A program made the translations under genes and the position numbers. From positions 2,232,001 to 2,296,000 of the forward strand of contig NC_014391.1 in NCBI RefSeq assembly GCF_000145235.1: DNA of 64,000 bases, in the 5' to 3' direction. The notes under the pieces were generated by a model. It was given only the letters and a program-made list of their open reading frames with translations. It did no database searches and had not been told where the DNA came from. Positions 35,242-52,524 of this stretch are shown here, one piece after another. Numbering within the stretch: the stretch's first letter is position 1; each line of letters starts with the position of its first letter. This DNA comes from Micromonospora aurantiaca ATCC 27029 (lineage in GTDB: Bacteria > Actinomycetota > Actinomycetes > Mycobacteriales > Micromonosporaceae).

Positions 35242-36186
35242 TCAGGGCAGCCGGCGGCGTACCGCGGACGCCACGGTCGCCGCGCGTCCGCCCACGGCCC
35301 GGACCACCTGGGACACGTCGGGCAGCCATCCGCCCCGGACCGCCTCACCGGCCGGGTTGGGCGTGAACACGATGCCCTGGTGCGCGGCGACCGGCGTCCG
35401 GGTCAGTCCGGCCCGGCGCATCAGCGGCCCGACCAGCACGTCGTACACGCCGGGCAGGACTGTGAAGCCGAAGCGCATGACCACGTTGAGCCGGCCCACC
35501 GACACCTCCCGGCGGGGCCGGTCGAGGCAGTGGACGATGGCCCGCGCCACCCGTTCGGGCGAGGCGATCGGGGGCGGCGGCCGGCCGACGCGGCCCAGGT
35601 AGTTGGCCGCCTGCCGGTAGACGGGCGTGTCGACGCTGCCCGGGTTGACCAGGCAGATCGCGACGCCGGGTGTCTCCCGCGCCTCCTGCTGGAGCGTGCG
35701 GGCCAGTCCCTGCAGGCCCCACTTGGCTGCGACGTAGCCGCTCATGTAGGGCGCGGTGATGTGCCCGAGCACCGAGCCGGTGAGCACGAGCGTGCCGCCG
35801 CCGGTGGTCCGGAAACGGCGCAGCGCCTCCCGGGCCACCGCCGCGGCGGCCAGCAGGTCGGTGCGGACCACCTGCTCGAACACCTCGGCCGGGGTCTCGT
35901 CGAAGCGGCCGTAGGACATCACCGCGGCGGTGTGCACCCAGGCGTCGACGCGGCCGAACTCGGCCCGCGCCGCGTCGGCGAGCGCGGCCACCGCGCCGGG
36001 CTCGGTCACGTCCATCGGTACGGCGATCGCCCGCGCGCCCGCCGCCCGGCACTCGTCGCGTACCTCGTCGAGCGTGGCGGGGGAGCGGGCCGCGAGGACC
36101 AGCCGGTCCCCGCGGCCCGCCAGCTCCCTGGCGGTCGCCCGGCCGATCCCGCTGGTCGCGCCGGTGACGACCACCGTCCGGGTCAC
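35242..36186 (-). CDS. Short-chain dehydrogenase/reductase
   Basis: A 314-residue classical SDR. VVVTGATSGIGRATARELA (about 5-23) is the NADP-binding loop; the catalytic triad lies in VLTGSVLGH and YMSGYVAAKWG (Y-x3-K). The C-terminal 110 residues extend past the SDR core and end in a basic tail. GTG 36186 overlaps the stop of the zinc alcohol dehydrogenase gene (GTGA), so the pair is co-translated. It may reduce or oxidise a keto or hydroxy group in the same pathway; the substrate is not predictable. Confidence 0.87.
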   Translation of the reverse strand: MTRTVVVTGATSGIGRATARELAGRGDRLVLAARSPATLDEVRDECRAAGARAIAVPMDVTEPGAVAALADAARAEFGRVDAWVHTAAVMSYGRFDETPAEVFEQVVRTDLLAAAAVAREALRRFRTTGGGTLVLTGSVLGHITAPYMSGYVAAKWGLQGLARTLQQEARETPGVAICLVNPGSVDTPVYRQAANYLGRVGRPPPPIASPERVARAIVHCLDRPRREVSVGRLNVVMRFGFTVLPGVYDVLVGPLMRRAGLTRTPVAAHQGIVFTPNPAGEAVRGGWLPDVSQVVRAVGGRAATVASAVRRRLP

Positions 36187-37367
36187 GGCGCGAGCACGAC
36201 CTTCACGCAGCCGTCCTCCTTCTTCTGGAACATCTCGTACGCGCGCGGCGCGTCGGTCAGCGGCAGCCGGTGGGTCCGCAGGTCCTCGACGCCCAGCGGG
36301 TCGTCGTCGCGCTCCAGCAGCGGGATGATCTCGTCGACCCAGCGCCGCACGTGGCACTGGCCCATGCGCAGCTGGATGCCCCTGTCGAACATCTCCATCA
36401 GCGGCATCGGGTCCTGCTCGCCGCCGTACACGCCGGAGATCGACACGGTGCCGCCACGCCGTACGGCCTTGAGCGCGGCGTGCAGCACCACGAGCCGGTC
36501 CACGCCGGCCTTGTCGGTCATCGCCTGGGCCAGCTTGTCCGGCAGCAGCCCGGCGGCGGTCTGGGCCATCTTGCCCAGCGGCGCGCCGTGCGCCTCCATG
36601 CCGACCGCGTCGATCACGGCGTCCGGGCCGCGTCCGTCGACCAGGTCGATGAGCGCGCCGGGTACGTCGTCGAGCTGGCTGACGTCGAGCACCTCGATGC
36701 CGTGGCGGCGGGCCATCTCCAGCCGCTCGGGGACCAGGTCCAGCCCGATCACCCGGCCGGCGCCGAGGTGGCGGCCGATCCGGGCGCTGAACTGCCCGAC
36801 CGGGCCGAGCCCGAACACGGCGAGCGTGCCGCCGGGCGGGGTGTCCGCGTACTTCACCGCCTGCCAGGCGGTGGGCAGGATGTCGGAGAGGTAGAGCCAG
36901 CGCTCGTCCGGGCCGCTGTCCGGGATCGTGATCGGGCCGAACTGGGCCTGCGGCACGCGCAGGTACTCGGCCTGGCCGCCGGGGATCGAGCCGTACAGCG
37001 AGGTGTAGCCGAACAGGGACGCGCCCTTGCCCTGGCTGGTCACCTGCGTGGTCTCGCACTGCGCGTAGAGCTGCCGCTCGCACATCCAGCACGAGCCGCA
37101 GGAGATGTTGAACGGGACGACCACCCGGTCGCCCTTCTTGAGCCGGGTCACGCCGGGCCCGACCTCCTCGACGACGCCCATCGGCTCGTGCCCGAGGATG
37201 TCGCCGGGCTTCAGGTACGGCCCGAGCACCTCGTACAGGTGCAGGTCGGAACCGCAGATGGCGGTCGAGGTGATCCGGACGATCGCGTCGGTCGGCTCCT
37301 CGATCCGGGGGTCCGGGACGTCCTCCACGCGGACGTCCCGCTTGCCGTGCCAGGTCAGTGCCTTCAT
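36183..37367 (-). CDS. Zinc-dependent alcohol dehydrogenase (MDR family)
   Basis: A 394-residue medium-chain dehydrogenase, similar to glutathione-independent formaldehyde/alcohol dehydrogenases. Catalytic zinc region: STAICGSDLHLYEV (Cys) and GHEPMGVVEEVG (His-Glu); structural zinc cysteines: NISCGSCWMCERQLYAQC; NAD loop: LAVFGLGPVGQFSARIG. ATG 37367 begins MKALTWHGKRDVRVEDVPDP, the standard family start. It overlaps the SDR by 4 bases. It lies just after lcp1 and the oxiB remnant, so it could handle aldehyde or alcohol ends of isoprene oligomers, which is inference. Confidence 0.92.
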   Translation of the reverse strand: MKALTWHGKRDVRVEDVPDPRIEEPTDAIVRITSTAICGSDLHLYEVLGPYLKPGDILGHEPMGVVEEVGPGVTRLKKGDRVVVPFNISCGSCWMCERQLYAQCETTQVTSQGKGASLFGYTSLYGSIPGGQAEYLRVPQAQFGPITIPDSGPDERWLYLSDILPTAWQAVKYADTPPGGTLAVFGLGPVGQFSARIGRHLGAGRVIGLDLVPERLEMARRHGIEVLDVSQLDDVPGALIDLVDGRGPDAVIDAVGMEAHGAPLGKMAQTAAGLLPDKLAQAMTDKAGVDRLVVLHAALKAVRRGGTVSISGVYGGEQDPMPLMEMFDRGIQLRMGQCHVRRWVDEIIPLLERDDDPLGVEDLRTHRLPLTDAPRAYEMFQKKEDGCVKVVLAP

Positions 37368-37441
37368 GCCTGTCTGTCCCCTCTCCGGTGCCGTCCATCG
37401 GACTGCTACCCGGCAGAGGGCCGTTGAATCGGCGGCGCCGG

Positions 37442-38017
37442 TCACCGTGGCGTGAGGTCGACAGCCACGGCGATCGTGCTGGTGCTGGCGGCGGTGGCGG
37501 CGAGGGCGCCGATGTCGAGGCGGCGGCCGGCGCGGTCGGTGACGGCGCCGGCCGCGAGCTGCAGGCCGGCGACGGGCGTGCCGAGCGTCGCCGACGCGGC
37601 CTCCAGCAGCCGCCGCCGGGCCACCGCCACGGCGACCCGGAGCGGGGTACGGGTTCCGACGGCCGGATGGGGTGCGCCACGTGTCCGGCCCGCTGCCGGC
37701 CGTGGCGGTGGCACACGGACGCGCCGGCGCGGTACCGACAGCCCGTCGGCGATCAGTTCGGCGGCCGAGGTGTCGCCGTCGTACCGGTCCGGCGGCAGCG
37801 TGAACGACACGGTCCCGTCCGGGGCGACCTCGACGGAGATCAGGGCCGCCCCGGGCAGGGCCGTGGCCGTCATGATCTCGCCGAGTCCGAGCAGCCCGGC
37901 CACGTCCGGCGACGGCGTCCGGGCGGCGGCCGGGTACGCGGCGGTGAGTTCGGCAGCGGCCACGAGGACCGGCGCGGCCAGCACGTACCCCAGGAACGGA
38001 GGGAGGGACACGGTCAT
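37442..38017 (-). pseudogene. oxiB: Truncated, degenerate molybdopterin hydroxylase subunit (oxiB/isoquinoline 1-oxidoreductase beta-like)
   Basis: A 191-residue open frame that matches only the N-terminal part of the about 700-residue large subunit of molybdenum hydroxylases. Recognisable parts: FLGYVLAAPVLVAAAEL (8-24), ALISVEVAPDGTVSFTLP, LIADGLSVPRRRVRV and LRVAVAVARRRLLEAA. In full-length relatives the first of these follows a twin arginine; here it is SLPPFLGYV, so the Tat signal is lost. The segments normally reading PRAEVGQGI and FNQLTGGS are absent or scrambled. A stop comes at DLTPR, and the remaining about 500 residues are missing, as is oxiA. It lies 65 bases after lcp1. A small functional protein cannot be excluded, as the frame is open. 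Confidence 0.7.
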
Positions 38018-38040
38018 GGTGCTCACCCGGGCGCTCGTCG

Positions 38041-38074
38041 TCGCAGCCGGGGACGGGAGGTGCCCCGGCTGCGA
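38041..38074 (-). terminator. Hairpin terminator after lcp1
   Basis: TCGCAGCCGGGG (38041-38052) and its exact reverse complement (38063-38074) form a 12-bp stem with a 10-base loop, 8 bases beyond the lcp1 stop codon. It separates lcp1 from the oxiB remnant and the dehydrogenase genes downstream, so lcp1 is probably its own transcription unit. Confidence 0.75.
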
Positions 38075-38082
38075 CGCGGTGG

Positions 38083-39306
38083 TCAGAACTCGCGGTTGCC
38101 GAGCGGGATCTCGATGTTGATGGACTGCCCCTCGGACAGGAACAGCAGGGCGAGCTTGCGCAGGAACTCGTCGAACAGCCAGTAGCACTCCGGTGCGAGC
38201 GGGAACGGCAGCAGCGCCTCCCGGACCGCGATGAACGGGCCCCAGCTCGTCCGCAGCAGCGTGTCCCAGAGCAGGTCGCGCGGGATCTCCAGCCAGTTGG
38301 CGATCTGGTTGCCGAGCATGAACCGGGTGAACGAGCCGAGGATGGGCTTGCTGAGCAGCCCGGCGTCGATCTCCTTGCCGAGGCCGAGCAGGATGTCGGC
38401 GAGCGCGTTGCCCTCGCGGGTGGGCGCGAGGATCGGGTCGAGGACCTCGCCGGCCTGGGAGTTCGCCTCGCTCCACGTGGCCGGGATGTACTCGTCCCTG
38501 ATGCCGAGCATGTGCGCGGCCACCTGCCACAGGTGCAGGAAGGCCGTCGACTCGGCGGCGGGGATCGGCACCCGCCAGTCGGTCAGTTTCCGCATGACCG
38601 TGGTCGGCAGGCTGTGCCAGGTGACCATCATGTCCCGCTGGCTGATCGGGATGTCCTCGGGCGCGACGTCGGCCCACTCGGGCGACTGCGGCAGGAGGTG
38701 ACGCACACCGGCGTGCGCGAGCCGGGTCTTGACGGCGGTCACGATCATCGAGCCGTCGGGCTGGTACGCGTTGGCGGTGCCGATGTCGTACCCGAGCTTG
38801 GCGGTCTTGGAGATGCGGTCCTTCATGTCCGCGCCGCCCTTGGAGTAGTAGACGGCGCGCGCCTCCTTCGGGATGACTGTGCTCATCATGCCGCTGGCCA
38901 GGCCGTAGAGCACGCCGAGGTAGAGCCCGCGCTTCTCGTTGAAGCGCACGGCGGTGGCCAGCTTGCCCTGGTCCACCCAGGACGGCAGCACGCGTGCGCG
39001 TTCGATGAACGCGCGGACGTCCGCCGGGAGGCCGGAGGGCAGCGGCTGGCCGTTCTTCGTCCACGTCCGCAGCAGTTGGTTGACCAGTGGCGCCTCGCCC
39101 CGGTCCAGGAGGGAGGCGACGAGCGGGTCGGCCTCCTCGTCCCACACCCAGCGGGGGTCCACGCCCGCGCCGGCGCCGGCCACCGATCCCTTCGGAGACC
39201 AGGTCCACGCCGACCGGGCCTGTGCCGGAGCGGCGACGCTGAGCGCGCCGAGCGCGCCCAGTGCCCCACCGGCCTTCAACATCTTGCGCCTGCTTACCGG
39301 TTCCAC
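38083..39306 (-). CDS. lcp: Latex clearing protein Lcp1 (secreted DUF2236 rubber oxygenase)
   Basis: A 407-residue homologue of Lcp from Streptomyces sp. K30, a heme b dioxygenase that cleaves poly(cis-1,4-isoprene) endo-wise into oligo-isoprenoids with aldehyde and keto ends. A Tat signal with twin arginine (SRRKMLKAGGALGALG) and a cleavage-like APAQA precede WTWSPKGSVAG. In the conserved core (STVIPKEARAVYY, DRISKTAKLG, KTRLAHAGVRHLLPQ) E148, R164, K167, T168 and H198 fall at exactly the K30 numbers, H198 being the heme ligand. GTG 39306 is chosen because GAGGAG then lies 5 bases upstream; GTG 39312 would abut it. Followed by a terminator; divergent from an SDR gene. Confidence 0.93.
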   Translation of the reverse strand: MEPVSRRKMLKAGGALGALGALSVAAPAQARSAWTWSPKGSVAGAGAGVDPRWVWDEEADPLVASLLDRGEAPLVNQLLRTWTKNGQPLPSGLPADVRAFIERARVLPSWVDQGKLATAVRFNEKRGLYLGVLYGLASGMMSTVIPKEARAVYYSKGGADMKDRISKTAKLGYDIGTANAYQPDGSMIVTAVKTRLAHAGVRHLLPQSPEWADVAPEDIPISQRDMMVTWHSLPTTVMRKLTDWRVPIPAAESTAFLHLWQVAAHMLGIRDEYIPATWSEANSQAGEVLDPILAPTREGNALADILLGLGKEIDAGLLSKPILGSFTRFMLGNQIANWLEIPRDLLWDTLLRTSWGPFIAVREALLPFPLAPECYWLFDEFLRKLALLFLSEGQSINIEIPLGNREF

Positions 39307-39443
39307 GTTCACTCCTCGGGGTCGAGGCCGCTGATACGGTGAAACGAATGTTGCGCCCGTGTATCACATGAGAGCACGTGGTAACGGTGTCCACAAGGCT
39401 CATGACGACAACTGTCGATGGTTTGCGATGAGGGGAGTCCACG
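39307..39443. promoter_or_regulatory. Divergent promoter region lcp1 / SDR with inverted repeats
   Basis: This 137-bp gap should hold the lcp1 and SDR promoters. Visible are a small inverted repeat CGACA-AC-TGTCG (39406-39417) and an imperfect dyad GTATCAC...GTGGTAAC (39361-39385) with a CACGTG box. These are candidate operators for one of the TetR-type regulators of the island, but no copy of either was found before the other island genes. Confidence 0.35.
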
Positions 39444-40320: not shown

Positions 40321-40415
40321 GCTGCCATCGGCTGCGGAACCCGCGCGGGCACCACGGCGAGGGGTGCGGCCAGCCCTGCCACCACCAGGCCCGGTTGCGT
40401 GTGAAGGAGTAGCCC

Positions 40416-42278
40416 ATGGACCCCGCCCACGTCCTCGCCGAGGACTGCGCCAAGAAAGCCGCCGACCTGACTGTCCCGGCGCTGCTGCACCGCAACGCCA
40501 CCGAGTACGCCGACCGGCCCGCGCTGACCACGCTCGGCCGGGACGACACCCGCACCTGGGCCGCGCTGCGCGACGAGGTCGCCGAGCTGTCCGCCGGCCT
40601 GGCCGAGATCGGCCTGGAGGCCGGGCGGCACATGCTGATCATGATGTCCAGCCGCACCGAGCACTGGCTCGTCGACCTCGCCGCGGTCCACCTGGGCGCG
40701 GTGCCGTCCACGATCTACCCGACGCTCAGCGCCGAGCAGATGCGCTACCTGGCCCGGCACAGCGCCGCCCAGGTGCTCGTGCTGGAAGGGCCGGCCGAAC
40801 TGGAGCGCTGGCGGCCGATCCCGGCCGACCTGCCCGACCTGCTGCGGGTGGTGCTGGTGGACGAGCCCGCCGAACCGGCCGGCGACGCGGTGCCGCTGTC
40901 GCGCGTGCGTACCCTCGGCCGGGCCGCACGCGAGGCGGACCCGGACGCCTTCGAGCGGCGCTGGCGCACGATCCGGCCCGAGCAGCCGGTGACGCTGCTC
41001 TACACGTCCGGCACGACTGGTAACCCGAAGGGCGTCGTGCTCAGCCACCACAACGTGATCTACCAGGCGGTGGCGCTGGATGCGATGGTGTCCGTCCCCG
41101 ACCACGCGCCGACGGTGGCCTACCTGCCGCTCGCGCACATCGCCGAACGGTTCCTCGGCATCTACAACCCGATCTACCGCGCCGGGCACGTGACGATCTG
41201 CCCCGACGCCACGCAGCTCGTCGCGGCGCTGCGCACCGTCGGCCCCGCCTCGTTCTTCGGGGTTCCGCGGGTCTGGGAGAAGATGGCCGCCGGCGTCCAG
41301 GCCCACCTGGCCGCCGCCGAGCCCGCGGTCCGCGCCGCCGTCGCCGCCGCGACCGCGGTGACACTGGAGGCGTACGAGCTGCGCGCGGCCGGAGAGCCGG
41401 TGCCGGACGAGCTGGCCGCCCGGGTGGCGCAGGCCCGGGACACCGTGCTGCGGCCGTTGCAGGCCACCCTCGGCCTGCAGAACATGACCTGGCCCGGCAG
41501 CGGCGCCGCCCCGATCCCGGTGGACGTGCTGCGGTTCCTCGCCGGGCTCGGCGTCGACGTGCTGGAGGTGTGGGGTCTGACCGAGACCACCGGCACCGCC
41601 ACCCTCAACACCCCCGACCGCTTCCGCACCGGGACGGTCGGCCGCCCGAACGTGGGCATGGAGGTACGCCTCGCCGACGACGGCGAGGTCCTCGTCCGGG
41701 GTCCGCTGGTGTGCTCCGGCTACCTGCGCGAGGACGGCGGCGTCGAGCCGGTCGTCGACGCGGACGGCTGGCTGGCCACCGGCGACGTCGGGACGCTCGA
41801 CGACGACGGCTTCCTCACCATCACCGACCGCAAGAAGGAACTCATCATCACGTCCAGCGGGAAGAACATCTCGCCGGCGCAGATCGAGAACCTGCTGCGG
41901 GCGCACCCGCTCATCGGTCAGGCCGTCGCGATCGGCGACCGGCGGCCGTACGTCACGGCGCTGATCGTGCTGGACGAGGAGGTCGCGCCGCAGTGGGCGC
42001 GCACGCACGGCGTCAGCGACCCGCAGCTGCCCACGCTGGCCTCGGACCCGGTGCTGCTGGCCGAGATCCAGGCCGCGGTGGACGCGGCGAACGCGCGCCT
42101 CGCCCGGCCGGAGCAGGTCAAGACGTTCCAGGTGCTGCCGTCGGCGTGGACGCCGGAGTCGGGCGAGCTGACCCCGACGCTGAAGCTACGGCGCCGGGTC
42201 ATCGTCGACAGGTACGGCGACCGGATCGACGCCCTCTACCGGCCGGGCGACGCGGTGGCGGAGCCCGTCACGGAGTAG
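40416..42278 (+). CDS. Long-chain acyl-CoA synthetase (AMP-forming, FadD-like)
   Basis: A 620-residue ANL-superfamily enzyme. LLYTSGTTGNPKGVVLSHHN (194-213) is the ATP/AMP P-loop; VWGLTETTGTATLN is the adenine-binding motif; the hinge and C-terminal lysine regions appear in GWLATGDVGTLDDDGF and ITDRKKELIITSSGKNISPAQIE. It resembles the FadD15/FAA-type long-chain ligases. It would activate isoprenoid acids released by Lcp cleavage and aldehyde oxidation. AGGAG lies 6-7 bases before ATG 40416. The last 93 bases overlap the end of the convergent DUF2236 gene. Confidence 0.92.
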   Translation: MDPAHVLAEDCAKKAADLTVPALLHRNATEYADRPALTTLGRDDTRTWAALRDEVAELSAGLAEIGLEAGRHMLIMMSSRTEHWLVDLAAVHLGAVPSTIYPTLSAEQMRYLARHSAAQVLVLEGPAELERWRPIPADLPDLLRVVLVDEPAEPAGDAVPLSRVRTLGRAAREADPDAFERRWRTIRPEQPVTLLYTSGTTGNPKGVVLSHHNVIYQAVALDAMVSVPDHAPTVAYLPLAHIAERFLGIYNPIYRAGHVTICPDATQLVAALRTVGPASFFGVPRVWEKMAAGVQAHLAAAEPAVRAAVAAATAVTLEAYELRAAGEPVPDELAARVAQARDTVLRPLQATLGLQNMTWPGSGAAPIPVDVLRFLAGLGVDVLEVWGLTETTGTATLNTPDRFRTGTVGRPNVGMEVRLADDGEVLVRGPLVCSGYLREDGGVEPVVDADGWLATGDVGTLDDDGFLTITDRKKELIITSSGKNISPAQIENLLRAHPLIGQAVAIGDRRPYVTALIVLDEEVAPQWARTHGVSDPQLPTLASDPVLLAEIQAAVDAANARLARPEQVKTFQVLPSAWTPESGELTPTLKLRRRVIVDRYGDRIDALYRPGDAVAEPVTE

Positions 42279-43157
42279 CGCCGGGTCGATGCCGGGCGGG
42301 GGTGGCGGCGCGCCGAGGTCGGCGGGCCGGTACCCCCGCGGGTAGCCGGGATAGGTGCGGTTGCGCGGCGCGCGGGTCAGCCGGCTCACGGTCCGCGCGG
42401 GCAGCAGCCGCACCACGGCGGCCCGGGCGCGCAGCGCGCCGCCGGCCAGCGCGGTCAGCGGTCGCGGCGCGGCCGGCAGCCCGAAGGCGGCCCGCATCTC
42501 GGGCGGCAGCAGCGCGCGCACCGCTAGCCGCGCGGCCGGGCGCAGCGGCGCCGGGTACCAGGACGCGAACAGATCGAGCGTGTACGCCGCGACCCGCTCG
42601 TTGCTCGGCGTGCGGCGGAACGTGTCCCGCTCGTACGCGTCCTTGAACGCCCGGAACGCGTCGAAGTCCGCCGGGACGTCGCGGATGCCCATGCGCGCGC
42701 CGACCGCGCGGTAGTAGTGGAACGCGGCCAGCCGCTCGTGCTCGTGCAGCGGGCGCCAGCCGTACCGGTCCAGCCAGTCGATCGGCTCGTAGACGAACGT
42801 CGACAGCACGTACCGCATGTCGTCGTTCGAGATCGCGTACCGGCCGTGCGCCCGGTTGACCACCCGCAGCGCCTCCCGGCCGCGCGGCGAGTCGTACCCG
42901 TGCTCCAGCAGCTCGGCCATCAGCAGCGCGGTGTCGTCGTAGCGCTGCTGCGCCCGCAGCCGGAACTCGCCGGTCGCGTCGAGCAGCGCGGAGATGCTCG
43001 GTACGCAGAACGTGCGCAGCAGCGCCAGCTCCAGTGCCCGCTGGTAGTCGAAGGGGAACTCGTAGCCGGCGGAGAGCCGGTAGATCTCGTGGTGGTCGCG
43101 GACCGGATCGAGCGTCTCGATCCGGCGCAACCAGCGGTACCGCCCCTCACGAGCCAT
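42186..43157 (-). CDS. DUF2236 / MpaB-family oxygenase-like protein
   Basis: A 323-residue cytoplasmic member of the DUF2236 superfamily, the domain also found in Lcp. Landmarks: YEFPFDYQRALELALLRTFCVPSIS, NDDMRYVLSTFVYEPIDWLDRYGWRPLHEHERLA (conserved Tyr/His-rich core) and YRAVGARMGIRDVP. It has no signal peptide, so unlike the two Lcp proteins it would act inside the cell, perhaps on cleavage products (inference). Related MpaB/MpaB' proteins are oxygenases acting on isoprenoid side chains. ATG 43157 is chosen over GTG 43172. Its 3' end overlaps fadD by 93 bases, and the 50-residue C-terminal tail encoded there is Pro/Asp/Val-rich and likely unconserved. Divergent from lcp2. Confidence 0.8.
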   Translation of the reverse strand: MAREGRYRWLRRIETLDPVRDHHEIYRLSAGYEFPFDYQRALELALLRTFCVPSISALLDATGEFRLRAQQRYDDTALLMAELLEHGYDSPRGREALRVVNRAHGRYAISNDDMRYVLSTFVYEPIDWLDRYGWRPLHEHERLAAFHYYRAVGARMGIRDVPADFDAFRAFKDAYERDTFRRTPSNERVAAYTLDLFASWYPAPLRPAARLAVRALLPPEMRAAFGLPAAPRPLTALAGGALRARAAVVRLLPARTVSRLTRAPRNRTYPGYPRGYRPADLGAPPPPPGIDPALLRDGLRHRVARPVEGVDPVAVPVDDDPAP

Positions 43158-43181
43158 CGCCACCACCCCCACCGTCCACCC

Positions 43182-43210
43182 TTGCCGATGCAGTCAAGCT
43201 CCTCTATGTT
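43182..43210 (+). promoter_or_regulatory. Putative lcp2 promoter
   Basis: TTGCCG (43182-43187) and TATGTT (43205-43210) are exactly 17 bases apart, in an AT-rich island (CTATGTTAATAGAAAATCAC) in the 152-bp gap between the DUF2236 gene and lcp2. This gives a leader of about 93 bases, containing a dyad CCGGT-CGA-ACCGG (43285-43297) next to the ribosome site. Confidence 0.55.
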
Positions 43211-43309
43211 AATAGAAAATCACATCCCCGGATAACTCGAAACCTGCTTGTGCGCACCTCGCGGGCCGGTGTTCAGGGCGATGTCCGGTCGAACCGGGAA
43301 GTGGTGCTA

Positions 43310-44527
43310 ATGGAGAATCTCAGTAGACGAAGCGTCCTGACGCTCGGCGCCGCGCTGGGACTGGTAGCGGTGGCGGACGCCCCGAAGGCGTGGGCGTGGT
43401 CGTCGTCCGGCTCGATCGCCGGGACCGACACGGTCACCGACCCGTGGGACGTCTGGGACGACGACACCGACCCGCTCGTCGCCTCGATGCTGGACGCCGG
43501 TCAGATCCCGGCGGTGAACACCGCGTTCGCGTCCTGGATCCGCAACGGCGACGCGCTGCCCGCCGGCCTGCCCCCGGCGCTCACCACCTACCTGCGGCGG
43601 GTCAACACGCTGCCGTCCTGGGCCGACCAGGCCAAGCTGGACCGCGCCGCCCAGTTCAACAAGCGCATGAGCATGTACCTGTTCCTGCTCTACGGCCTGG
43701 GCAGCGGGATCATGAGCACGGTGATCCCGCGCGAGGCCCGCAACGTCTACTGGTCCGAGGGCGGCGCGGACATGAAGTCGCGCGCCGCGAAGACCTTCAC
43801 CTACGGGTACGACCTGAGCGCCCCCGACGCGTTCAAGGCCACCGGCAGCTTCGTGGTCACCTCGCACAAGACGCGGCTCACCCACGCGGCCGTGCGGCAC
43901 CTGCTGCCGCAGTCCGCGCCGTGGCGCGGCGTCACCGACCACCCGATCCCGATCAGCAACGGCGACATCCTCATCACCTTCCACAGCCTCGGCACGTACG
44001 TGCACCGCAAGCTGCTCGACTGGCGTCGCTGGGGACTGCGGATGTCGGCCGCGGAGGAGGAGGCCTACCTGCACATGTGGCAGGTCGCGCTGCACCTGCT
44101 CGGCGTGCGCGACGAGTTCATCCCGAACAGCTGGGCCGCCGCCGAGGAGCAGTCCCGGTACGCGCTGTCCCCGCTGCTCGCGCCGACGCCCGAGGGCATC
44201 GACCTGGCCGACATCCTGCTGAACCTGACGTCCTCGGTGGACCTGGGCGTCACCCGGGGATTCCAGCGGGAGTTCGCGCGCTACGTGCTCACCGACCGGA
44301 TCGGCGACTGGCTGCGGCTGCCCCGCGACTACATCTCCCGGGGCGTGATCGAGGCCGGCTGGCCGACGTACGTGATGTTCCGCGAAGGGCTCTCGCCGCT
44401 CATGCCGGAGACGTTCGGCCTGTTCGACAGGTTCATCCGCGGGCTGGCGATGCTGTTCCTCAACAACGGCTCGTCCGCGTCGCACACCCCGATCACGATT
44501 CCGGTCATGAACCGGCCGGGCACCTGA
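43310..44527 (+). CDS. lcp: Latex clearing protein Lcp2 (second rubber oxygenase paralogue)
   Basis: A 405-residue paralogue of Lcp1, about half identical by eye in the core. Tat signal MENLSRRSVLTLGAALGLV with a KAWAW cleavage area, then SSSGSIAGT. The catalytic segments STVIPREARNVYW, SRAAKTFTYG and KTRLTHAAVRHLLPQ keep all five key residues: E142, R158, K161, T162 and H192 (K30 numbers 148/164/167/168/198). The C-terminal end NNGSSASHTPITIPVMNRP matches the Lcp end. ATG 43310 is preceded by GGGAAG; an upstream in-frame GTG pair is less likely. Convergent with a TetR-type regulator gene 12 bases away. Confidence 0.92.
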   Translation: MENLSRRSVLTLGAALGLVAVADAPKAWAWSSSGSIAGTDTVTDPWDVWDDDTDPLVASMLDAGQIPAVNTAFASWIRNGDALPAGLPPALTTYLRRVNTLPSWADQAKLDRAAQFNKRMSMYLFLLYGLGSGIMSTVIPREARNVYWSEGGADMKSRAAKTFTYGYDLSAPDAFKATGSFVVTSHKTRLTHAAVRHLLPQSAPWRGVTDHPIPISNGDILITFHSLGTYVHRKLLDWRRWGLRMSAAEEEAYLHMWQVALHLLGVRDEFIPNSWAAAEEQSRYALSPLLAPTPEGIDLADILLNLTSSVDLGVTRGFQREFARYVLTDRIGDWLRLPRDYISRGVIEAGWPTYVMFREGLSPLMPETFGLFDRFIRGLAMLFLNNGSSASHTPITIPVMNRPGT

Positions 44528-44539
44528 GTCCGTGCCGGT

Positions 44540-45754
44540 TCAGAGCGTCAGGGCGCCGGTGACCAGCGCGGTGACCGCGTCCCGGTGGCCGGGCGAGTCC
44601 TGCCAGCGCAGGGCGCGCCCGGCCTCCACCGCCACGCCGAACCCGGCGTGCACGAGCAGCCGGGCCTGCCGCCGGTCCAGGTCCGGCCGGACCGCGCGCA
44701 ACTGCTGCTCCCAGACCGCGATGTGCTCCCGCTGGGCGAGGATGAGGGGACGCCGTACGTCGTCCGGCAGGCCGGCCACCTCCGCCTCGGCGACGCTGTT
44801 GAGGGTGTTGTGCTCGAAGCAGTAGGCCACGTACGCCGCCGCCAGCGCGACCACCGCCTGCCGTGGGTCGGCCGCCCGCTGGAGGCTGCGGTCCACCGCC
44901 TGGGCGAGCAGTTCCGCCGCCTGGAGGCAGGCGGCCACGAGGATGTCCACCTTGCCGGGATAGTGGCGGTAGATCGCGGACGGTGCGAGCCCCACCGCCT
45001 GGGCGATCTGCGCGTTGGTGACTGTGGCGAACCCGTCCCGGGCGAACAGCGGTACGGCCGCGGCCAGGATCTCCGCACGCCGCGTCCGGGGCACCGGCTG
45101 GGCGGGCAGCTCGACCAGCCGCGCCGTCCCGGCAGCGGTGGCCGGATCGGTGGCCACCACCCGCATCGCGGACCGCAGCACCAGATCCTCGATCCGGCGC
45201 TGGGCGATCGAGGTGTGGTGCATGGTGACCGAACCGATCACACCGAGCGCGGCCACCGCCCGCAGGCGCTCGTCGGGCAGCGGGTACTCCCGCCGTACCA
45301 TCTCGGTCACCCGGCCCACGACGTGGCCGAACTTCGCGCGGAGCAGGTGGCGGTCCGCGCGGCCGAGGTAGCGGGCCTCCCACCGGTAGAGGCCGCCGGA
45401 GGCGCGGTGCGCGACGGTGACCCGGGTGAGGGCCAGCAGCACGTCGGCCAGCGCCGCGTCCGGCGGCCACTCGTCGATGGCCCCGACCAGGTTGTCCACC
45501 ATGACGTTGGCGCACTCGGCGAACAACGCGTACTTGTTCGGGAAGTGGCGGTACAGCGCGGGCGCGCTGATCCCGACCGCCGCGGCGATCTCCTCCATCG
45601 ACGCGCCGTGGTAGCCGCGCTCGCTGAACACCTGCCCGGCCGACTCGACGATGACCTGTCTGCGGTTGCGGGGCCGGGTGGCCGCGGCCGGCCCGGTGGT
45701 CACCGGATCGTCCGGGCGGACGCGGACGGGCACGGGACCATGGGTGTCAGTCAA
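44540..45754 (-). CDS. Double-length TetR-type regulator (two TetR units fused)
   Basis: A 404-residue protein with two complete TetR N-terminal helix-turn-helix units: IVESAGQVFSERGYHGASM / [20 protein letters not shown] (about 35-77) and EILAAAVPLFARDGFATVT / IAQAVGLAPSAIYRHYPGKV (about 228-271). Each is followed by about 130 residues of helical ligand-domain-like sequence. A normal TetR protein has one unit of about 200 residues and dimerises; here one chain may mimic a dimer. TTG 45754 with GAGG about 9 bases upstream is the best start; GTG codons 8 and 18 are alternatives. Convergent with lcp2 and in tandem with a paralogue, so control of lcp genes is likely (inference; LcpR of Gordonia is a TetR protein). 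Confidence 0.85.
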   Translation of the reverse strand: MTDTHGPVPVRVRPDDPVTTGPAAATRPRNRRQVIVESAGQVFSERGYHGASMEEIAAAVGISAPALYRHFPNKYALFAECANVMVDNLVGAIDEWPPDAALADVLLALTRVTVAHRASGGLYRWEARYLGRADRHLLRAKFGHVVGRVTEMVRREYPLPDERLRAVAALGVIGSVTMHHTSIAQRRIEDLVLRSAMRVVATDPATAAGTARLVELPAQPVPRTRRAEILAAAVPLFARDGFATVTNAQIAQAVGLAPSAIYRHYPGKVDILVAACLQAAELLAQAVDRSLQRAADPRQAVVALAAAYVAYCFEHNTLNSVAEAEVAGLPDDVRRPLILAQREHIAVWEQQLRAVRPDLDRRQARLLVHAGFGVAVEAGRALRWQDSPGHRDAVTALVTGALTL

Positions 45755-45796
45755 CCACAGCGCCTCACGCCGCCCGCGCGCTCGCGGTGACGCCGG

Positions 45797-47005
45797 TCAG
45801 GCGTGCAGGACGGCGAGCGCGAGCCGGGCGGTCTGGTCGTCGTAGCCGGCGGTGCGGTCGAAGCGGCCGAGCCGCCCGACGTCGGTGACGACGTTCAGCG
45901 CGGCGTGGACGAGCACACGGGCGTCGGCGGCCGGCAGGTCCGGTCGTACCGCCCGGACCAGGCCCACCCACTCCTCGACGTGCAGCCGCTGCGCGCCGCG
46001 CAACTGGTGGCGGTCCCGGTCCGGCAGGTTGTTGTTCTCCGCCAGGTACACCGCGACCAGGTCGCTCTGGCCGAACGCGAAGTCGACGTAGGCGCGTACC
46101 ACCCGGTGCAGCGCGTCGGCCGGGTCGCTCGCCTCGGCGATCGCCGCGGTGGTGGCCCCGGTGAGCCGGTCGGTGGCCCGGTAGTAGGCGGCCGCGAGCA
46201 GGTCGGCCTTGCCGGGGAAGTAGCGGTACACGCTGGACGCCTGCATGCCCGCGGCGCGGCCGATGTCCTCGACCGCGACTGCGTGGTAGCCGTGCCTGTG
46301 GAACAGGCGCATCGCCTCGATGAGCAGCAGTTCGCGCCGCGACGCCGGACGCACCGGCCCGGTGGCGGGCATGTCCTCCGGCGCGGTACGCCGCCGGAGC
46401 GGCACCGTCGGCGCGTCGGTCCGCAGCAGCGTCCAGGCGACCCGGGTGAGCAGGTGCTCGGTGTCGGTGCCGGTGGCCGCGGCCCGGTACGTGGTCACGC
46501 TGCCGAACGCGCTCAGCGCCGCGTTCACCAGCAGGTCGGCCTGCGCGGTGGTCAGCTCGGGACGCAACTCGCGCAGCGGCGCGGCGACGCGGCCGACGAG
46601 CGTGGCCATCGAGGCGGCGAACTCCTGCCGGTGCTCGGGCGTCAGGTAGCGGCCCTCCCACTGGTACAGCCCGGCCACCCGCCGCCTGCTCACCGCGACC
46701 TCGGCGAGCGCGCGCAGCAGCTCGTCGAGCAGCCCGTCGGCGTTACTCGCCGCCGGCTGTCCGGTCGCGGCGAGCAGGGCACCGACGACCTCCCGGGTGG
46801 CGTGCACCAGGATCGCGTACTTGTTCGGGAAGTGCCGGTAGACGGCCGGCCCGCTGATGCCGACGGCGGCGGCGATCTCGTCCACCGAGACGCCGTGGTA
46901 GCCCCGCTCGCAGAACAACTCGGCCCCGGCGAGCGCGATCCGGGCCTTGCGGTCCTTGGGCCGTCTGACCGGTGCCGGGGCGGTGTCGCTGGCTGCTTGT
47001 CGCAC
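45797..47005 (-). CDS. Double-length TetR-type regulator, paralogue
   Basis: A 402-residue protein built like the neighbour 42 bases downstream: HTH 1 in [18 protein letters not shown] / [20 protein letters not shown] (about 26-66), HTH 2 in [19 protein letters not shown] / [19 protein letters not shown] (about 228-266). Both proteins also share YRWEARYLGR / [10 protein letters not shown] and LLVHAGFGVA / [10 protein letters not shown], so the fusion predates the gene duplication. GTG 47005 follows TAACGT by 6 bases. Divergent from fadA-fadB, whose promoter it may control. The ligand could be an isoprenoid acyl-CoA or acid; that is a guess. Confidence 0.85.
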
Positions 47006-47011
47006 AGCTAC

Positions 47012-47017
47012 ACGTTA
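47012..47017 (-). promoter_or_regulatory. Putative -10 of a leaderless promoter for the TetR pair
   Basis: Minus-strand TAACGT, then GTAGCT, then GTG 47005: the leaderless layout again, here for a regulator. Confidence 0.5.
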
Positions 47018-47096
47018 GCGCCCCCTCGCGTGCATCCGGTGACGCCCCTCGGCCGTTTCCCCGGCGGGGTCGGAGCCGGACAGCGCGGAACGCGTC

Positions 47097-47140
47097 TTGA
47101 CAAGCGGCGGCAGGCTCAAGAAAAGTTAGGCGAAATTCGC
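47097..47140 (+). promoter_or_regulatory. Putative fadA-fadB promoter with 11-bp palindrome
   Basis: A consensus TTGACA (47097-47102) is followed after 18 bases by AAAAGT (47121-47126), a weak -10. Just downstream is the palindrome GCGAA-A-TTCGC (47130-47140), placed where a repressor would block initiation. The ribosome site GAGGAG for ATG 47168 follows. Confidence 0.45.
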
Positions 47141-47167
47141 ATGCGGGTGAGCAATGAGGAGCTTGGC

Positions 47168-48382
47168 ATGACGACCGATGCGTTCATCTACGACGCGTTG
47201 CGCACGCCGCGCGGGCGGGGCAAGCCGACCGGATCGCTGTACGGGGTGAAGCCGGTTTCGCTGATCACCGGCCTGATCGAGGAGACCCTGCGGCGGATGC
47301 CCGGCCTCGATCCGGCGCTGATCGACGACATCGTGCTCGGGGTGGTGTCCCCGCTCGGCGACCAGGGCGCCGACATCGCCCGGACCGCCGCCGTCGCCGC
47401 CGGCCTGCCCGACACGGTGGCCGGGGTCCAGCTCAACCGCTTCTGCGCCTCCGGGCTGGAGGCGGTGAACATCGCCGCGCAGAAGGTGCGCTCCGGCTGG
47501 GAGGACCTCGTCCTCGCCGGTGGCGTCGAGTCGATGTCCCGGGTGCCGATGGGCTCCGACGGCGGGGCCTGGGCGCTCGACCCGGAGGTCAACTTCACCA
47601 CCGGGTTCGTGCCGCAGGGCATCAGCGCCGACCTCATCGCCACCATCGCCGGCTTCGACCGGGAGACGGTCGACGCGTACGCGCTCCAGTCGCAGGCGCG
47701 GGCCGCGAAGGCGTGGGCCAACGGCTACTTCGCCCGGTCCGTGGTGCCGGTACGCGACCGCAACGGGCTGACCGTGCTGGACCGGGACGAGCACATCCGG
47801 GCCGACTCGACGGCGGAGAGCCTCGGCGCGCTGCGCCCCTCGTTCGCCGAGATCGGTGAGAAGGCGGGCTTCGACGCGGTCGCGTTGCAGAAGTACCACT
47901 GGGTCGAGCGCATCGAGCACGTCCACACGGCGGGCAACTCCTCCGGCATCGTCGACGGCGCCGCGCTCGTCGCGATCGGCAGCGAGGCGGCAGGCGCCGC
48001 CGCCGGTCTCACCCCGCGCGCCCGCGTCGTGGCCACAGCGCTCAGCGGCGCCGACCCCACCATCATGCTCACCGGCCCGGCCCCGGCCGCCCGCAAGGCG
48101 CTCGCGAAGGCCGGTCTCGGCGTCGACGACCTCGACCTGGTGGAGATCAACGAGGCGTTCGCCGCGGTGGTCCTGCGGTTCGTCGCCGACCTCGGCCTGA
48201 ACCCGGACATCGTCAACGCCAACGGCGGGGCGATCGCGATGGGCCACCCGCTCGGCGCGACCGGCGCCATGATCCTCGGCACGCTCGTCGACGAACTGGA
48301 ACGACGCGGCGGCCGCTACGGCCTGGCCACGCTCTGCGCGGGCGGCGGCATGGGCATCGCGACCGTGATCGAACGAATCTGA
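47168..48382 (+). CDS. fadA: Acetyl-CoA C-acyltransferase (thiolase, FadA-like)
   Basis: A 404-residue thiolase catalysing the last beta-oxidation step, release of acetyl- or propionyl-CoA. Active-site cysteine C93 in [40 protein letters not shown] with the catalytic His; [10 protein letters not shown] with the second Cys. Length typical. ATG 47168 has GAGGAG 6 bases upstream. fadB starts 10 bases after its stop, giving the alpha/beta pair of a trifunctional-like complex. Confidence 0.95.
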
Positions 48383-48391
48383 GGAGCACGA

Positions 48392-50539
48392 ATGGCAAAC
48401 ACCATCCGGTGGGAGCACGGCGACGACGGCATCGTGCTGCTCACCCTCGACCACCCCGGCCGCTCGGCGAACGTGATGAACGCGGAGTTCGGCGCGAGCC
48501 TGGCGGCCACCGTGGACCGGCTCGAAGCCGAGCGTGACCGGATCACCGGCGTGATCGTCACCTCGGCCAAGAAGACGTTCTTCGCCGGCGGCGACCTGGA
48601 GACCCTGGTGCGGCTCACGCCCGCCGACGCCGAGGCGTCGGCGGCCGACGCGGCCGCGCTCAAGCAGACCGTACGCCGGCTGGAGACGCTCGGCCGCCCG
48701 GTCGTCGCCGCCGTCAACGGATCGGCCCTCGGCGGCGGACTGGAACTGGCCCTGGGCTGCCACCACCGCGTCGTGCTCGACGACCCGGCCATCGAGATCG
48801 GCTTTCCCGAGGTCACGCTCGGCCTGCTGCCCGGCTGCGGCGGCGTGGTGCGTACCGTCCGGCTGCTCGGCGTCACCGCCGCGCTGACCGACTGGCTGCT
48901 GCGCGGCCAGCGCCGCCGGCCGCAGGACGCGCTCGCGCACGGGCTGGTCGACGAGTTGGCCGCCGACCGGGACGCCCTGATGGCCGCCGCCCGTGAGTGG
49001 ATCGCCGCCCACCCGGACGCGACCCAGCCGTACGACCGCAAGGGCTACCGGATGCCCGGCGGCACCCCGTCCAGCCCTGGCCTCGCGGTGCAGTTGCCGG
49101 CCATGCCCGCGCTGCTGCGCAAGCAGCTCAAGGGCGCGCCCTACCCGGCGCCCCGCAACATCCTCGCCGCCGCCGTCGAGGGCGCCCAGGTGGACCTGGA
49201 CACCGCGTTCGTCATCGAGGGGCGGTACTTCACCGAGCTGGCCACCGGCCAGGTCGCCAAGAACATGATCAAGGCGCTCTTCTTCGACCTCCAGACCGCC
49301 CGGTCCCGCACCGCCGGTGGCGACCACGAGCCGGTACGCAGCGTCGCCGTCGTCGGCGCGGGCATGATGGGCGCCGCCATCGCGTACGTCTGCGCCCGCG
49401 CCGGGATGCGGGTGGTGCTCAAGGACGTCACCGCCGAGGGTGCGGCGCGAGGCAAGGCGTACTCGGCGGGCCTGCTCGACAAGGCGGTCGCGCGGGGCCG
49501 GTCCACGCCGGAGAAGCGCGACGAGATCCTGGGCCGCATCCACGCCACCGGCGACCTCGCCGACCTGGCCGGCGTCGACCTCGCCATCGAGGCGGTCTTC
49601 GAGGACCCGGCGCTCAAGCACAAGGTGTACGCCGAGATCGAGCAGGTCGCGCCGGACGCGCTCATCGCCTCCAACACCTCCACGCTGCCCATCACGCTGC
49701 TGGCCGAGGGCGTCAGCCGGCCGGAGGAGTTCGTCGGGCTGCACTTCTTCTCCCCGGTGGACAAGATGCCGCTGGTCGAGGTGATCCGCGGGGAGCGGAC
49801 CGACGAGGCCACGCTGGGCCGCGCGCTGGGCGTCGTCCGCCAGTTGCGCAAGACGCCGATCGTGGTCAACGACAGCCGGGGCTTCTTCACCAGCCGGGTC
49901 ATCGGCACGTTCACCAACGAGGGCGTGGCGATGCTGGCCGAGGGCATCCCGGCGGCGACCATCGAGCAGGCCAGCAGCCAGGCCGGCTATCCCGCGCCGG
50001 TCCTCGCGCTGATGGACGAGCTGACCCTCACCCTGCCCCGGAAGATCCGCCAGGAGACGGCCGCCGCGACAGTGGCCGCCGGGGGCACCTGGCAGCCGCA
50101 CGCCGCCGACGCGGTGATCGACCGGATGATCGACGAGTGCGGCCGGACCGGACGCTCCGGCGGTGCCGGCTTCTACGACTACCGCGACGGGAAGCGGGCC
50201 GGGCTCTGGCCGGGGCTGCGGGAGCAGTTCGGCGGCACGAACCTGGACACGCCCTTCGAGGACCTCAAGGAGCGGATGCTCTTCATCGAGGCGATCGAGT
50301 CGGTGCGGTGCCTGGACGAGGGCGTGCTGACCTCGGTGGCCGACGCCAACGTCGGCTCGATCCTGGGCATCGGCTACCCGAGCTGGACCGGTGGCGTCCT
50401 GCAGTACGTCAACCAGTACGACGGCGGGCTGCCGGGCTTCGTGGCCCGTGCCCGGGTGCTCGCAGAGCGCTACGGCGAGCGGTTCGACCCGCCGCCGCTG
50501 CTGACGGCCATGGCCGAGCGGGGCGAACGGTTCGAGTAG
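48392..50539 (+). CDS. fadB: Enoyl-CoA hydratase/3-hydroxyacyl-CoA dehydrogenase fusion (FadB-like)
   Basis: A 715-residue bifunctional enzyme. Residues 1-200: crotonase domain with the oxyanion-loop region KKTFFAGGDLETL and catalytic glutamates E118 (GGGLELALG) and E140 (IGFPEVTLGLLPGCGG). Residues from 315: NAD-binding VAVVGAGMMGAAIAYV, catalytic His in GLHFFSPVDKMPLVE and substrate-domain motifs KTPIVVNDSRGFFTSR and GVLTSVADANVGSILGIG. It hydrates and oxidises enoyl-CoA. GAGGAG precedes the ATG. It ends 6 bases before the convergent GMC oxidoreductase gene. Confidence 0.95.
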   Translation: MANTIRWEHGDDGIVLLTLDHPGRSANVMNAEFGASLAATVDRLEAERDRITGVIVTSAKKTFFAGGDLETLVRLTPADAEASAADAAALKQTVRRLETLGRPVVAAVNGSALGGGLELALGCHHRVVLDDPAIEIGFPEVTLGLLPGCGGVVRTVRLLGVTAALTDWLLRGQRRRPQDALAHGLVDELAADRDALMAAAREWIAAHPDATQPYDRKGYRMPGGTPSSPGLAVQLPAMPALLRKQLKGAPYPAPRNILAAAVEGAQVDLDTAFVIEGRYFTELATGQVAKNMIKALFFDLQTARSRTAGGDHEPVRSVAVVGAGMMGAAIAYVCARAGMRVVLKDVTAEGAARGKAYSAGLLDKAVARGRSTPEKRDEILGRIHATGDLADLAGVDLAIEAVFEDPALKHKVYAEIEQVAPDALIASNTSTLPITLLAEGVSRPEEFVGLHFFSPVDKMPLVEVIRGERTDEATLGRALGVVRQLRKTPIVVNDSRGFFTSRVIGTFTNEGVAMLAEGIPAATIEQASSQAGYPAPVLALMDELTLTLPRKIRQETAAATVAAGGTWQPHAADAVIDRMIDECGRTGRSGGAGFYDYRDGKRAGLWPGLREQFGGTNLDTPFEDLKERMLFIEAIESVRCLDEGVLTSVADANVGSILGIGYPSWTGGVLQYVNQYDGGLPGFVARARVLAERYGERFDPPPLLTAMAERGERFE

Positions 50540-50545
50540 CGGCGG

Positions 50546-52492
50546 TCAGAGCGCGGCGGCGAGTCGCTGGGCGTTCATGTACGCGATGGCCTCCACGGAG
50601 ATCATCGGGTTGACGCCCAGCGACCCCGGGAAGGTCGACGCGTCGGCGAGGACCAGGTTGGGGACCTCCCACGTCGCGCCGTCCGGCCGGGCCACCGACG
50701 TCGCCGCGCTGCCGCCCATCCGGGCCGCGCCCATGATGTGCAGGGCGGCCATGGCGACCTGCCCGGGCGCGGTCCCCAGCGTCTCGACGTGCCGGACGAA
50801 CTCGTCGATGGAACCCGTGCCGCGTTCCCAGACCGGGCCGCGCTGGTGTCCGGACCAGAGCCGCAGCGCTCCGGCCGCCTCGACGATCCGGGCCGCGCCG
50901 GCGATCCCTGCTCGCAGATGGGCCGCGTCGTACGGGGAAAGGCGGTAGTGAACCACCGGCTCGCCGTCGCGGCCGACCCGGACCTCACCGCTGTCGCGGT
51001 CGCGGGTGATCACGCCGACCCCGGCGAGGTGCGGCAGCGCGCGCATCCGGTCCAGATGTGCCCGTCCGCCCGTCCAGCTCATGAACGACACAGCGGTGGC
51101 CGGGTTGGTGGCGGCGGTCTCGTAGATGACGCCGTAGCCGCGGCCGTCGAGGTCGGCGTGTTCGGTGGAGTACCGGGTCTGCATCCCGCCCTCCCACGGC
51201 CGGACCTCCTCGGCGAACACGCCCCACACGCCGGTCGCCGGGTGCAGGTGCAGGTGCCGGCCGATGTTCGGGTTGGTGAGCCCGGAGCGGCGGAGCAGGG
51301 CGGGTGTCTGCACGCTGCCGGCCGCGACCACCACGGCGCGGGCGCGTACGGCGACCGGGTGGCCGTCCGCGGTGCGGCCGGTCACGCCCGTCGCCCGGCC
51401 CGCTTCGACGGTGACGGTCCGCACGTCGACGCCGACGACGAGCCGCGTACCGGCGCGCTCCGCGTCGGCCAGCCAGGTCTTCGTCGCGGACCGTTTGGCG
51501 CCGATCCGGCAGCCCAGGCCGCAGCGCCCGCACTCGACACCGGTGTCGCAGCCGTCGACGTTGCGGGGCATCTCGTCGACGTGCCAGCCCAGGCGGTTCA
51601 GTCCGCGCTCCATCAGCGCGTCCCGGGAGGAGATCCGGCCGTGCTCGCGGTTGACGCCGAGCCTCGACCACACCGCGTCGAGGCAGCTGTCGTACTCGTC
51701 GGTGGCGAACTGCGGCACGCCGAGCGCGGCCCACTCCTCGCGTACCCGGACCGGGGTGGGGAACGACGTGGTGTAGTTCACCACTGTGCCCCCGCCGAGG
51801 CACTGCCCCTGGAGGAGGCTGAGCTGGCCCTCGGCGGTGGCGGCGGGGCCCGGGGCGTAGAGCCGGGACAGTCCGGACAGCTCCCCGCCGTCGAAGTCCC
51901 GGTCGTCGTAGTAGCCGCCCTTCTCGACGACGACCACGTCCAGGCCGTGCCCGGCGAGGACCGCGGCGGCAGTGCCGCCGCCGGCGCCGGATCCGACGAC
52001 GACGACGTCGCAGTCCAGCGTGGTCGGCGCGGACGGGTGGACCGGGGTCAGCGGCGGCGCGGGCGCGTCGGGCCGGACCCCGAGCGGTCCGGGGTAGCCG
52101 ATGGCGTCCCACACGGGCGAGTGCCCGGCCGGCCCCGGCGTCAGGTAGTAGGAGAGGGTGGCGGCGCCCTTGAGCGCCTGGAACAGCGCCCGTTTGGCGG
52201 TGATCCGCGAGTGGGCCAGCGCGAGCAGCGTCTTCTCCCGGCGCTCCTGCGACTGCCGGGAGAACGGCCGCGCGGAACCGCCGAGGACGAACTGGGTGGC
52301 GGGGGAGTCCCACCGGTCCAGCAGCCGCAGGAACTGCCGGACCTCGGCGGCGCGCGGATTGTGCAGGACGAGTGCGGCCATCACCTCGGTCGCGCCGAGC
52401 CGGCTGGCCGACGGGATCCCGGCGCCGTCACCCGGCGCGAACGTGTCGCAGATGCTCGCCAGGGCGGCGCGCTGGCGGTCGGACAGGTGCAC
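50546..52492 (-). CDS. GMC-type FAD alcohol oxidase (long-chain fatty alcohol oxidase-like)
   Basis: A 648-residue protein in three parts. Residues 1-150 form an N-terminal helical domain (LSDRQRAALASICDTFAPGDG) like gluconate dehydrogenase subunit 3. Then comes FAD binding with DVVVVGSGAGGGTAAAVLA (GxGxxG at 167-172), and a GMC C-terminus with HIMGAARMGG and LGVNPMISVEAIAYMNAQRL. A cysteine cluster CDTGVECGRCGLGC lies mid-protein, as in long-chain alcohol oxidases. It would oxidise primary alcohols to aldehydes. GTG 52492 has GGAGG 5 bases before it. It follows the acyl-CoA dehydrogenase gene by 32 bases, hence an operon. A sterol or glucose-type GMC substrate is less likely but possible. 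Confidence 0.85.
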   Translation of the reverse strand: MHLSDRQRAALASICDTFAPGDGAGIPSASRLGATEVMAALVLHNPRAAEVRQFLRLLDRWDSPATQFVLGGSARPFSRQSQERREKTLLALAHSRITAKRALFQALKGAATLSYYLTPGPAGHSPVWDAIGYPGPLGVRPDAPAPPLTPVHPSAPTTLDCDVVVVGSGAGGGTAAAVLAGHGLDVVVVEKGGYYDDRDFDGGELSGLSRLYAPGPAATAEGQLSLLQGQCLGGGTVVNYTTSFPTPVRVREEWAALGVPQFATDEYDSCLDAVWSRLGVNREHGRISSRDALMERGLNRLGWHVDEMPRNVDGCDTGVECGRCGLGCRIGAKRSATKTWLADAERAGTRLVVGVDVRTVTVEAGRATGVTGRTADGHPVAVRARAVVVAAGSVQTPALLRRSGLTNPNIGRHLHLHPATGVWGVFAEEVRPWEGGMQTRYSTEHADLDGRGYGVIYETAATNPATAVSFMSWTGGRAHLDRMRALPHLAGVGVITRDRDSGEVRVGRDGEPVVHYRLSPYDAAHLRAGIAGAARIVEAAGALRLWSGHQRGPVWERGTGSIDEFVRHVETLGTAPGQVAMAALHIMGAARMGGSAATSVARPDGATWEVPNLVLADASTFPGSLGVNPMISVEAIAYMNAQRLAAAL

Positions 52493-52524
52493 GGTGCCTC
52501 CGATCGACCGAAGGGCCGGGTGGG

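Follow-up and report, generated by a model that had tools for sequence, protein, structure and literature searches.

The window, a stretch of 64,000 nucleotides from Micromonospora aurantiaca ATCC 27029, contains two genes for latex clearing proteins (Lcp). Lying 65 nt behind the first of them is a short open reading frame that resembles the beginning of OxiB, a molybdenum hydroxylase subunit, and is referred to here as the oxiB stump. The features of the locus are as follows.

36183 to 37367, minus strand: zinc ADH, downstream of the stump, its neighbour in clade A alone (four genomes, defined below)
37415 to 37441, minus strand: about nine codons past the stop of the stump with weak likeness to OxiB ESFTVIGRP, at the truncation point common to the stumps (tblastn, tails of other stumps)
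37442 to 38017, minus strand: oxiB stump, an open reading frame of 191 codons, the N-terminal quarter of OxiB without the cofactor loops (homology and selection tests)
37646 to 37711, minus strand: position of cofactor loop 2, which reads TLADARPELLFNQLTGGSNTT in the intact enzyme and PPPRPAAGRTRGAPHPAVGTRT in the stump (alignment, selection tests)
37766 to 37792, minus strand: position of cofactor loop 1, which reads RAEVGQGITTST in the intact enzyme and PDRYDGDTS in the stump (alignment, selection tests)
37946 to 37990, minus strand: hydrophobic core of the signal, GYVLAAPVLVAAAEL, where constraint on the stump is strongest (omega 0.037, codon model)
38001 to 38043, minus strand: probable scrap of the lcpB 3' end with the lcpB-oxiB junction (score 44 against a shuffle maximum of 42, marginal here; clearer in genomes G112 and G011)
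38038 to 38076, minus strand: strong GC hairpin separating the stump from lcp1, a possible terminator lacking a T run (z -3.7, every shuffle less stable)
38083 to 39312, minus strand: lcp1, latex clearing protein with intact Tat signal (MPAB_Lcp_cat, E 5.5e-15; eight of the 160 genomes of the genus have an orthologue)
43313 to 44527, plus strand: lcp2, another latex clearing protein gene, which shares about 50% identity with lcp1 and is a paralogue distinct from lcpB
53750 to 55243, plus strand: aldehyde dehydrogenase (ALDH), start approximate, likely substitute for OxiAB (Aldedh, E 1.3e-124)

The original prediction of an OxiB remnant behind lcp1 is borne out, as the frame occupies exactly the expected coordinates and aligns with OxiB along its length. 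The window's stump alone matches the Pfam family MoCoBD_2 only below threshold (E 0.013), and the similarity therefore had to be demonstrated via its relatives. Orthologous stumps from sister species lie above the Pfam cut-off, with E down to 1.3e-13, and share 60-67% identity with intact OxiB. Full OxiB proteins match the stump in tblastn with E of about 1e-15 to 1e-21 in most cases (5.6e-42 in one search), and intact OxiB proteins of the same bacterial family align from the leader through to residue 190 of the stump. Most stumps are about 50-67% identical to intact N-terminal domains over 190 residues, and the tblastn alignments continue through the stop of the window's stump to 37415-37418. 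An NCBIfam search with the stump returned no match. The GC3 of the stump is slightly below that of lcp1, and its start signals are weak, with no good ribosome-binding site before the ATG.

Most of the enzyme is missing. A full OxiB of about 750 residues comprises two MoCoBD_2 segments and MoCoBD_1; the stump retains the first MoCoBD_2 segment only, so that about 550 residues are absent (the earlier estimate was about 500), and nothing further of OxiB was recognised at the locus or in the genome. The leader reads SLPPFLGYV in the stump versus RRRFLGYV in intact OxiB, and the predicted loss of the twin arginine and scrambling of two cofactor motifs are both seen in the alignment. There, RAEVGQGITTST of loop 1 corresponds to PDR--YDGDTS, and TLADARPELLFNQLTGGSNTT of loop 2 to P----PRPAAGRTRGAPHPAV. 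Neither the VGQG nor the TG[G/A]S cofactor loop is left, while both are present in the 79 intact OxiB loci described below. Among the hallmarks of an OxiB or IorB-type large subunit, the stump displays the N-terminal homology and lacks the full set of domains, the cofactor loops, the OxiA partner and the twin-arginine leader. Without these 550 residues, both loops and OxiA, the stump cannot be a molybdenum hydroxylase, and binding of molybdopterin cytosine dinucleotide (MCD) is very probably no longer possible.

The partner subunit has disappeared as well, as originally proposed. Neither an OxiA orthologue nor an intact oxiB was found in the whole 7.03-Mb single-contig genome, and OxiA, which carries two [2Fe-2S] clusters, has no orthologue in the other eight carriers of the stump either. 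For OxiA, the best match in the genome reaches 37% identity, next to a CoxL-like enzyme, compared with 99-100% identity for the matches in a control genome. Relocation of OxiB or OxiA within the genome was considered and rejected, the sole MoCoBD_1 enzyme being the CoxL-like one at G000:C1:2031936. Encoded outside the window (G000:C1:2031936-2032676), this protein is the only other molybdenum hydroxylase large subunit of the genome, and its own small subunit adjoins it.

The locus is a readable trace of the ancestral lcp-oxiB-oxiA cassette, as had been suggested. Intact OxiB is found at 79 of 80 named loci in public genomes, where it spans 717-763 residues from the leader on, contains both motifs and has oxiA downstream. 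The sole exception is Micromonospora rubida NEAU-HG-1 (G011), itself a carrier of the stump. A detail to be added is lcpB. In relatives such as Dactylosporangium sp. AC04546 the order is lcp-lcpB-oxiB-oxiA and, as read from sequence comparison, the ancestral cassette had two lcp genes ahead of oxiB, not one. In the stump genomes lcpB is gone apart from scraps in the gap that separates lcp1 from the stump. The lcpB ribosome-binding site and first codons survive in M. rubida and G159 (MTEPSRREGLLAG and MTELDRRDVLLAG, compared with MSELSRRKVLISGG), and G112 retains the 3' end and stop of lcpB. The scraps score 59 against a shuffle maximum of 50 in M. rubida (5' end), 63 against 59 in G159, 76 against 55 in G112 (3' end) and 44 against 42 in the window. 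The 5' scrap of lcpB is in frame with the stump at L055:13973-14686 (M. rubida) and at L056:5137-6264, potentially encoding a fusion of an Lcp leader to the OxiB stump.

The GC hairpin between lcp1 and the stump may act as an lcp1 terminator without a T run. In G159, G112 and G129, hairpins that differ in sequence are possible; G059 and G019 seem to be without one. Scans for promoter and terminator consensus sequences found nothing.

The stump follows lcp closely. Among 160 genomes of Micromonospora, eight encode lcp, each in two copies, and all eight contain the stump directly behind lcp1. A ninth stump is present in another genus of the family (G236), next to the lcp2 cluster and without lcp1. 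At this locus (L070:9825-10607) the stump is kept and the lcp2 cluster remains, with no lcp1 relic found nearby, indicating that a stump can outlive its lcp partner. The stump was not found in three other genomes of the same genus. In all nine carriers the frame is open, with neither stop nor frameshift, and the gaps are whole codons. Four carriers (this genome, G156, G059 and G019) constitute clade A and share the same TGA; because of this common stop codon, the divergence of clade A is wholly post-truncation.

Selection on the stumps, a small sample of nine genomes, was estimated with a custom-written maximum-likelihood codon model (MG94-type, F3x4). Omega (dN/dS) is 0.35 across the nine, and a value of 1 is rejected (LRT 107). 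Clade A alone gives 0.26 (LRT 45) and the other clade, B, 0.39 (LRT 53). These values are far above those of lcp1 (0.095 overall, 0.031 in clade A), and the constraint is accordingly weak to moderate. An omega raised relative to lcp1, together with loops and twin arginine lost differently by species, might be expected of a functionless pseudogene that decays slowly, its frame held open with the help of a high GC content in which stop codons rarely form. Although the strongest of the alternatives, this reading appears unlikely. Neutral simulations on the same tree, started from a stump sequence at 72% or 88% GC, produce omega of 0.71-1.10 and a largest LRT of 13, never reaching the observed values, and all nine frames stay stop-free in 0-5% of runs, even before indels and frameshifts are counted. 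Constraint is also specific to the correct frame and its antisense mirror, the other reading frames having omega near or above 1. It acts on the scaffold along most lineages, long ones included (per-branch LRT 15.4 in G236, 14.8 in G129, 9.8 in G112 and 9.5 in G019); power is low on short branches and on some single ones, such as G011 (omega 0.54, LRT 0.8) and G000 (LRT 2.9). Finally, the stump has stayed open with no frameshift in nine genomes while the adjacent lcpB has been shredded to scraps.

The pattern of constraint has changed in comparison with the complete enzyme. In intact OxiB the loops are the most constrained part, with omega of 0.03 against 0.18 for the scaffold (0.033, 0.019-0.056, and 0.185, 0.151-0.225, with 95% limits), whereas in the stumps the loops evolve at 0.76, not different from 1, and the scaffold at 0.27. 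Tested with shared branch lengths, this split is significant in both clades: loops 0.47 (0.26-0.80) and scaffold 0.22 (0.14-0.33) in clade A, loops 0.85 (0.61-1.18) and scaffold 0.30 (0.23-0.40) in clade B. The loops can serve as a clock and, being near neutral overall, show that cofactor binding was lost long ago. If their omega of 0.76 is treated as a mixture of functional and released evolution, mixing of rates would predict a neutral scaffold at about 0.8 rather than 0.27. The most conserved segment is the leader core, with omega of 0.037. Its synonymous codons vary normally (permutation p 0.74), with no nucleotide-level constraint seen in the leader, and the selection there thus acts on amino acids. 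The stump, then, has neither the broken frame nor the neutral evolution of a pseudogene. Instead it has the properties of a conserved small protein, namely orthologues of the same length in nine genomes, a common end point and a scaffold at omega 0.27. An oxiB 'caught in decay', as originally described, is not what the dN/dS analysis finds; conserved homologues of about 190 residues under clear purifying selection had been named as the sign of a real small protein, and these are present, with the similarity to molybdenum hydroxylases left standing.

It could also be supposed that oxiB remained intact until lately and was truncated several times independently, the low omega being inherited from its functional era. 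Stop codons and downstream genes do vary between stump lineages. Moreover, one stump retains an intact TGGSNT loop, and the twin arginine, lost in most lineages, persists as RRRF in G159 and G236 (G112 has RRHF). Together with the genomes holding lcpB scraps, these are intermediate stages of the kind anticipated in relatives. However, every stump stops resembling OxiB at one common position, at or immediately before TVIGRP, and a non-OxiB tail, PAxGxxRGR, is common to G112 and G129; given this shared break point and foreign tail, a single ancestral deletion is the simplest account. Clade A remained constrained after its shared stop, the near-neutral loops point to an old loss, and neither the loci nor the genomes yielded a recognisable C-terminal fragment or remnant of oxiA. 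Repeated recent truncation is therefore improbable.

Structure prediction is consistent with a retained fold. The AlphaFold2 model, whose input alignment included intact OxiB N-terminal domains, has a folded core spanning residues 58-188, whose sheet and helices exceed a pLDDT of 90; values are low in the old cofactor loops and the first 57 residues. Among solved structures the model most resembles the N-terminal domain of 8gy3 chain C (Z 11.4, rmsd 3.6, 131 residues aligned), and the best Foldseek match is the aldehyde oxidase 5y6q chain C (E 6e-5). As the model leans on intact OxiB homologues, it indicates compatibility with the fold rather than proof of it. A predicted MoCo-domain fold might suit a conserved domain that aids another molybdenum enzyme, for instance as a decoy or assembly partner, and six of the nine carriers, including the window's genome, do encode a CoxL-like enzyme. 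Such a helper is nonetheless very improbable: three carriers (G011, G112 and G236) have no other large-subunit match by this search, the stump follows lcp and not the cox genes, and its cofactor loops are gone. An origin of the constraint in an antisense gene at the locus, or in an element acting as DNA or RNA, is scarcely credible. Long antisense open reading frames do exist and the mirror frame has an omega below 1 (0.31 and 0.41), but in both clades omega is lower and the LRT higher for the sense frame, the mirror frame has stops in several genomes, the leader shows normal synonymous variation and the sense frame has a clear homologue.

Aldehyde oxidation likely depends on another enzyme in these organisms. 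The ALDH at 53750-55243, located about 10 kb from lcp2 and already named as a plausible replacement in the original prediction, is linked to lcp in all carriers: it is found in all eight lcp genomes of Micromonospora (E up to 1e-220) and in none of the other 152, and it is also present in G236. Relatives with intact OxiAB have similar ALDHs too, in some of them near lcp, at about 5 kb (G256, 80% identity) and about 12 kb (G200, 66%). The ALDH is therefore probably older than the disappearance of OxiAB, which it could have rendered dispensable. The linked ALDH is the likely substitute for OxiAB. The zinc ADH, proposed as a second candidate, was rejected as a general replacement, as it adjoins the stump in only four of the eight genomes, those of clade A.

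The window's ALDH and its counterparts in the seven remaining lcp genomes of Micromonospora are candidate oligo-isoprene aldehyde dehydrogenases. A beta-oxidation island surrounds lcp2 in the window (40413-53721), with genes for an acyl-CoA ligase, an SDR, a thiolase, a multifunctional FadB-like beta-oxidation fusion protein, an acyl-CoA dehydrogenase and a TetR-type regulator in addition to the ALDH. This island is conserved with lcp2 and partly present in G236 and G200 too.

Taken together, the stump is probably a small cofactor-free protein kept by selection after one old truncation of an lcp1-lcpB-oxiB-oxiA cassette. A single old event would have deleted the last three quarters of oxiB along with oxiA, leaving an N-terminal domain of about 190 residues that is very probably unable to bind cofactor. 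Aldehyde oxidation would probably have passed to the ALDH already linked to the lcp cluster. The stump would then have been retained, with selection preserving the folded alpha/beta core and the hydrophobic leader while the cofactor loops drift. Presumably the protein is made, although its weak start signals and the hairpin that sets it apart from lcp1 count against this. Through its preserved leader it would reside at the membrane or be exported, though the loss of the twin arginine in most lineages makes export uncertain. In the weakest step of this scheme, it may act as a non-enzymatic partner in the use of rubber or oligo-isoprenoids, such as one that binds a protein or a hydrophobic product. 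The preserved leader, the linkage to lcp and the loss of the cofactor make an accessory, non-enzymatic role, either extracellular or at the membrane, the best guess. A broader idea is offered tentatively: only the first domain of a molybdenum hydroxylase subunit was left, gave up its cofactor and entered the rubber pathway as an exported or membrane protein without enzymatic activity, while selection shifted from the active site, once the best conserved part, to scaffold and leader.

Known systems provide several points of comparison. In Gordonia and Nocardia, ALDHs oxidise oligo-isoprene aldehydes (PMC9782182, PMC8235351). As in the stump genomes with their lcp-linked ALDH, the route of Gordonia polyisoprenivorans and Nocardia farcinica combines the presence of Lcp with the absence of OxiAB (PMC9782182). 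No oxiB stump is reported from these two species, and they are mycolic-acid strains with adhesive growth (PMC8235351, PMC11169899), unlike the stump genomes. In the literature outside subscription papers, no truncated oxiAB was found. OxiAB has been proposed as required for latex clear zones (PMC11169899), and 6 of 86 tested Micromonospora strains, which may or may not carry oxiAB, formed such zones (PMC8538451). Since all eight lcp-bearing Micromonospora genomes are without OxiAB, the proposal is directly testable in this genus. For short open reading frames beside lcp more generally, a selection test is advisable before they are called debris.

By sequence, the closest solved structure to intact OxiB is the large subunit of the Gluconobacter oxydans membrane-bound aldehyde dehydrogenase (PDB 8gy3 chain C; phmmer E 5.5e-33), a complete multi-domain enzyme of which the stump matches the N-terminal domain only. 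The OxiB proteins of the lcp-oxiB-oxiA operons of Streptomyces sp. K30, Actinoplanes sp. OR16 and Dactylosporangium sp. AC04546 occupy the same site behind lcp and have the same leader and N-terminal MoCoBD_2 half-domain as the stump, but possess in addition the remaining 550 or so residues, both cofactor loops and the OxiA partner. The stump and these enzymes constitute a natural experiment in which one domain occurs with and without cofactor duty, allowing the residues that serve the cofactor to be separated from those that serve the fold or a new role.
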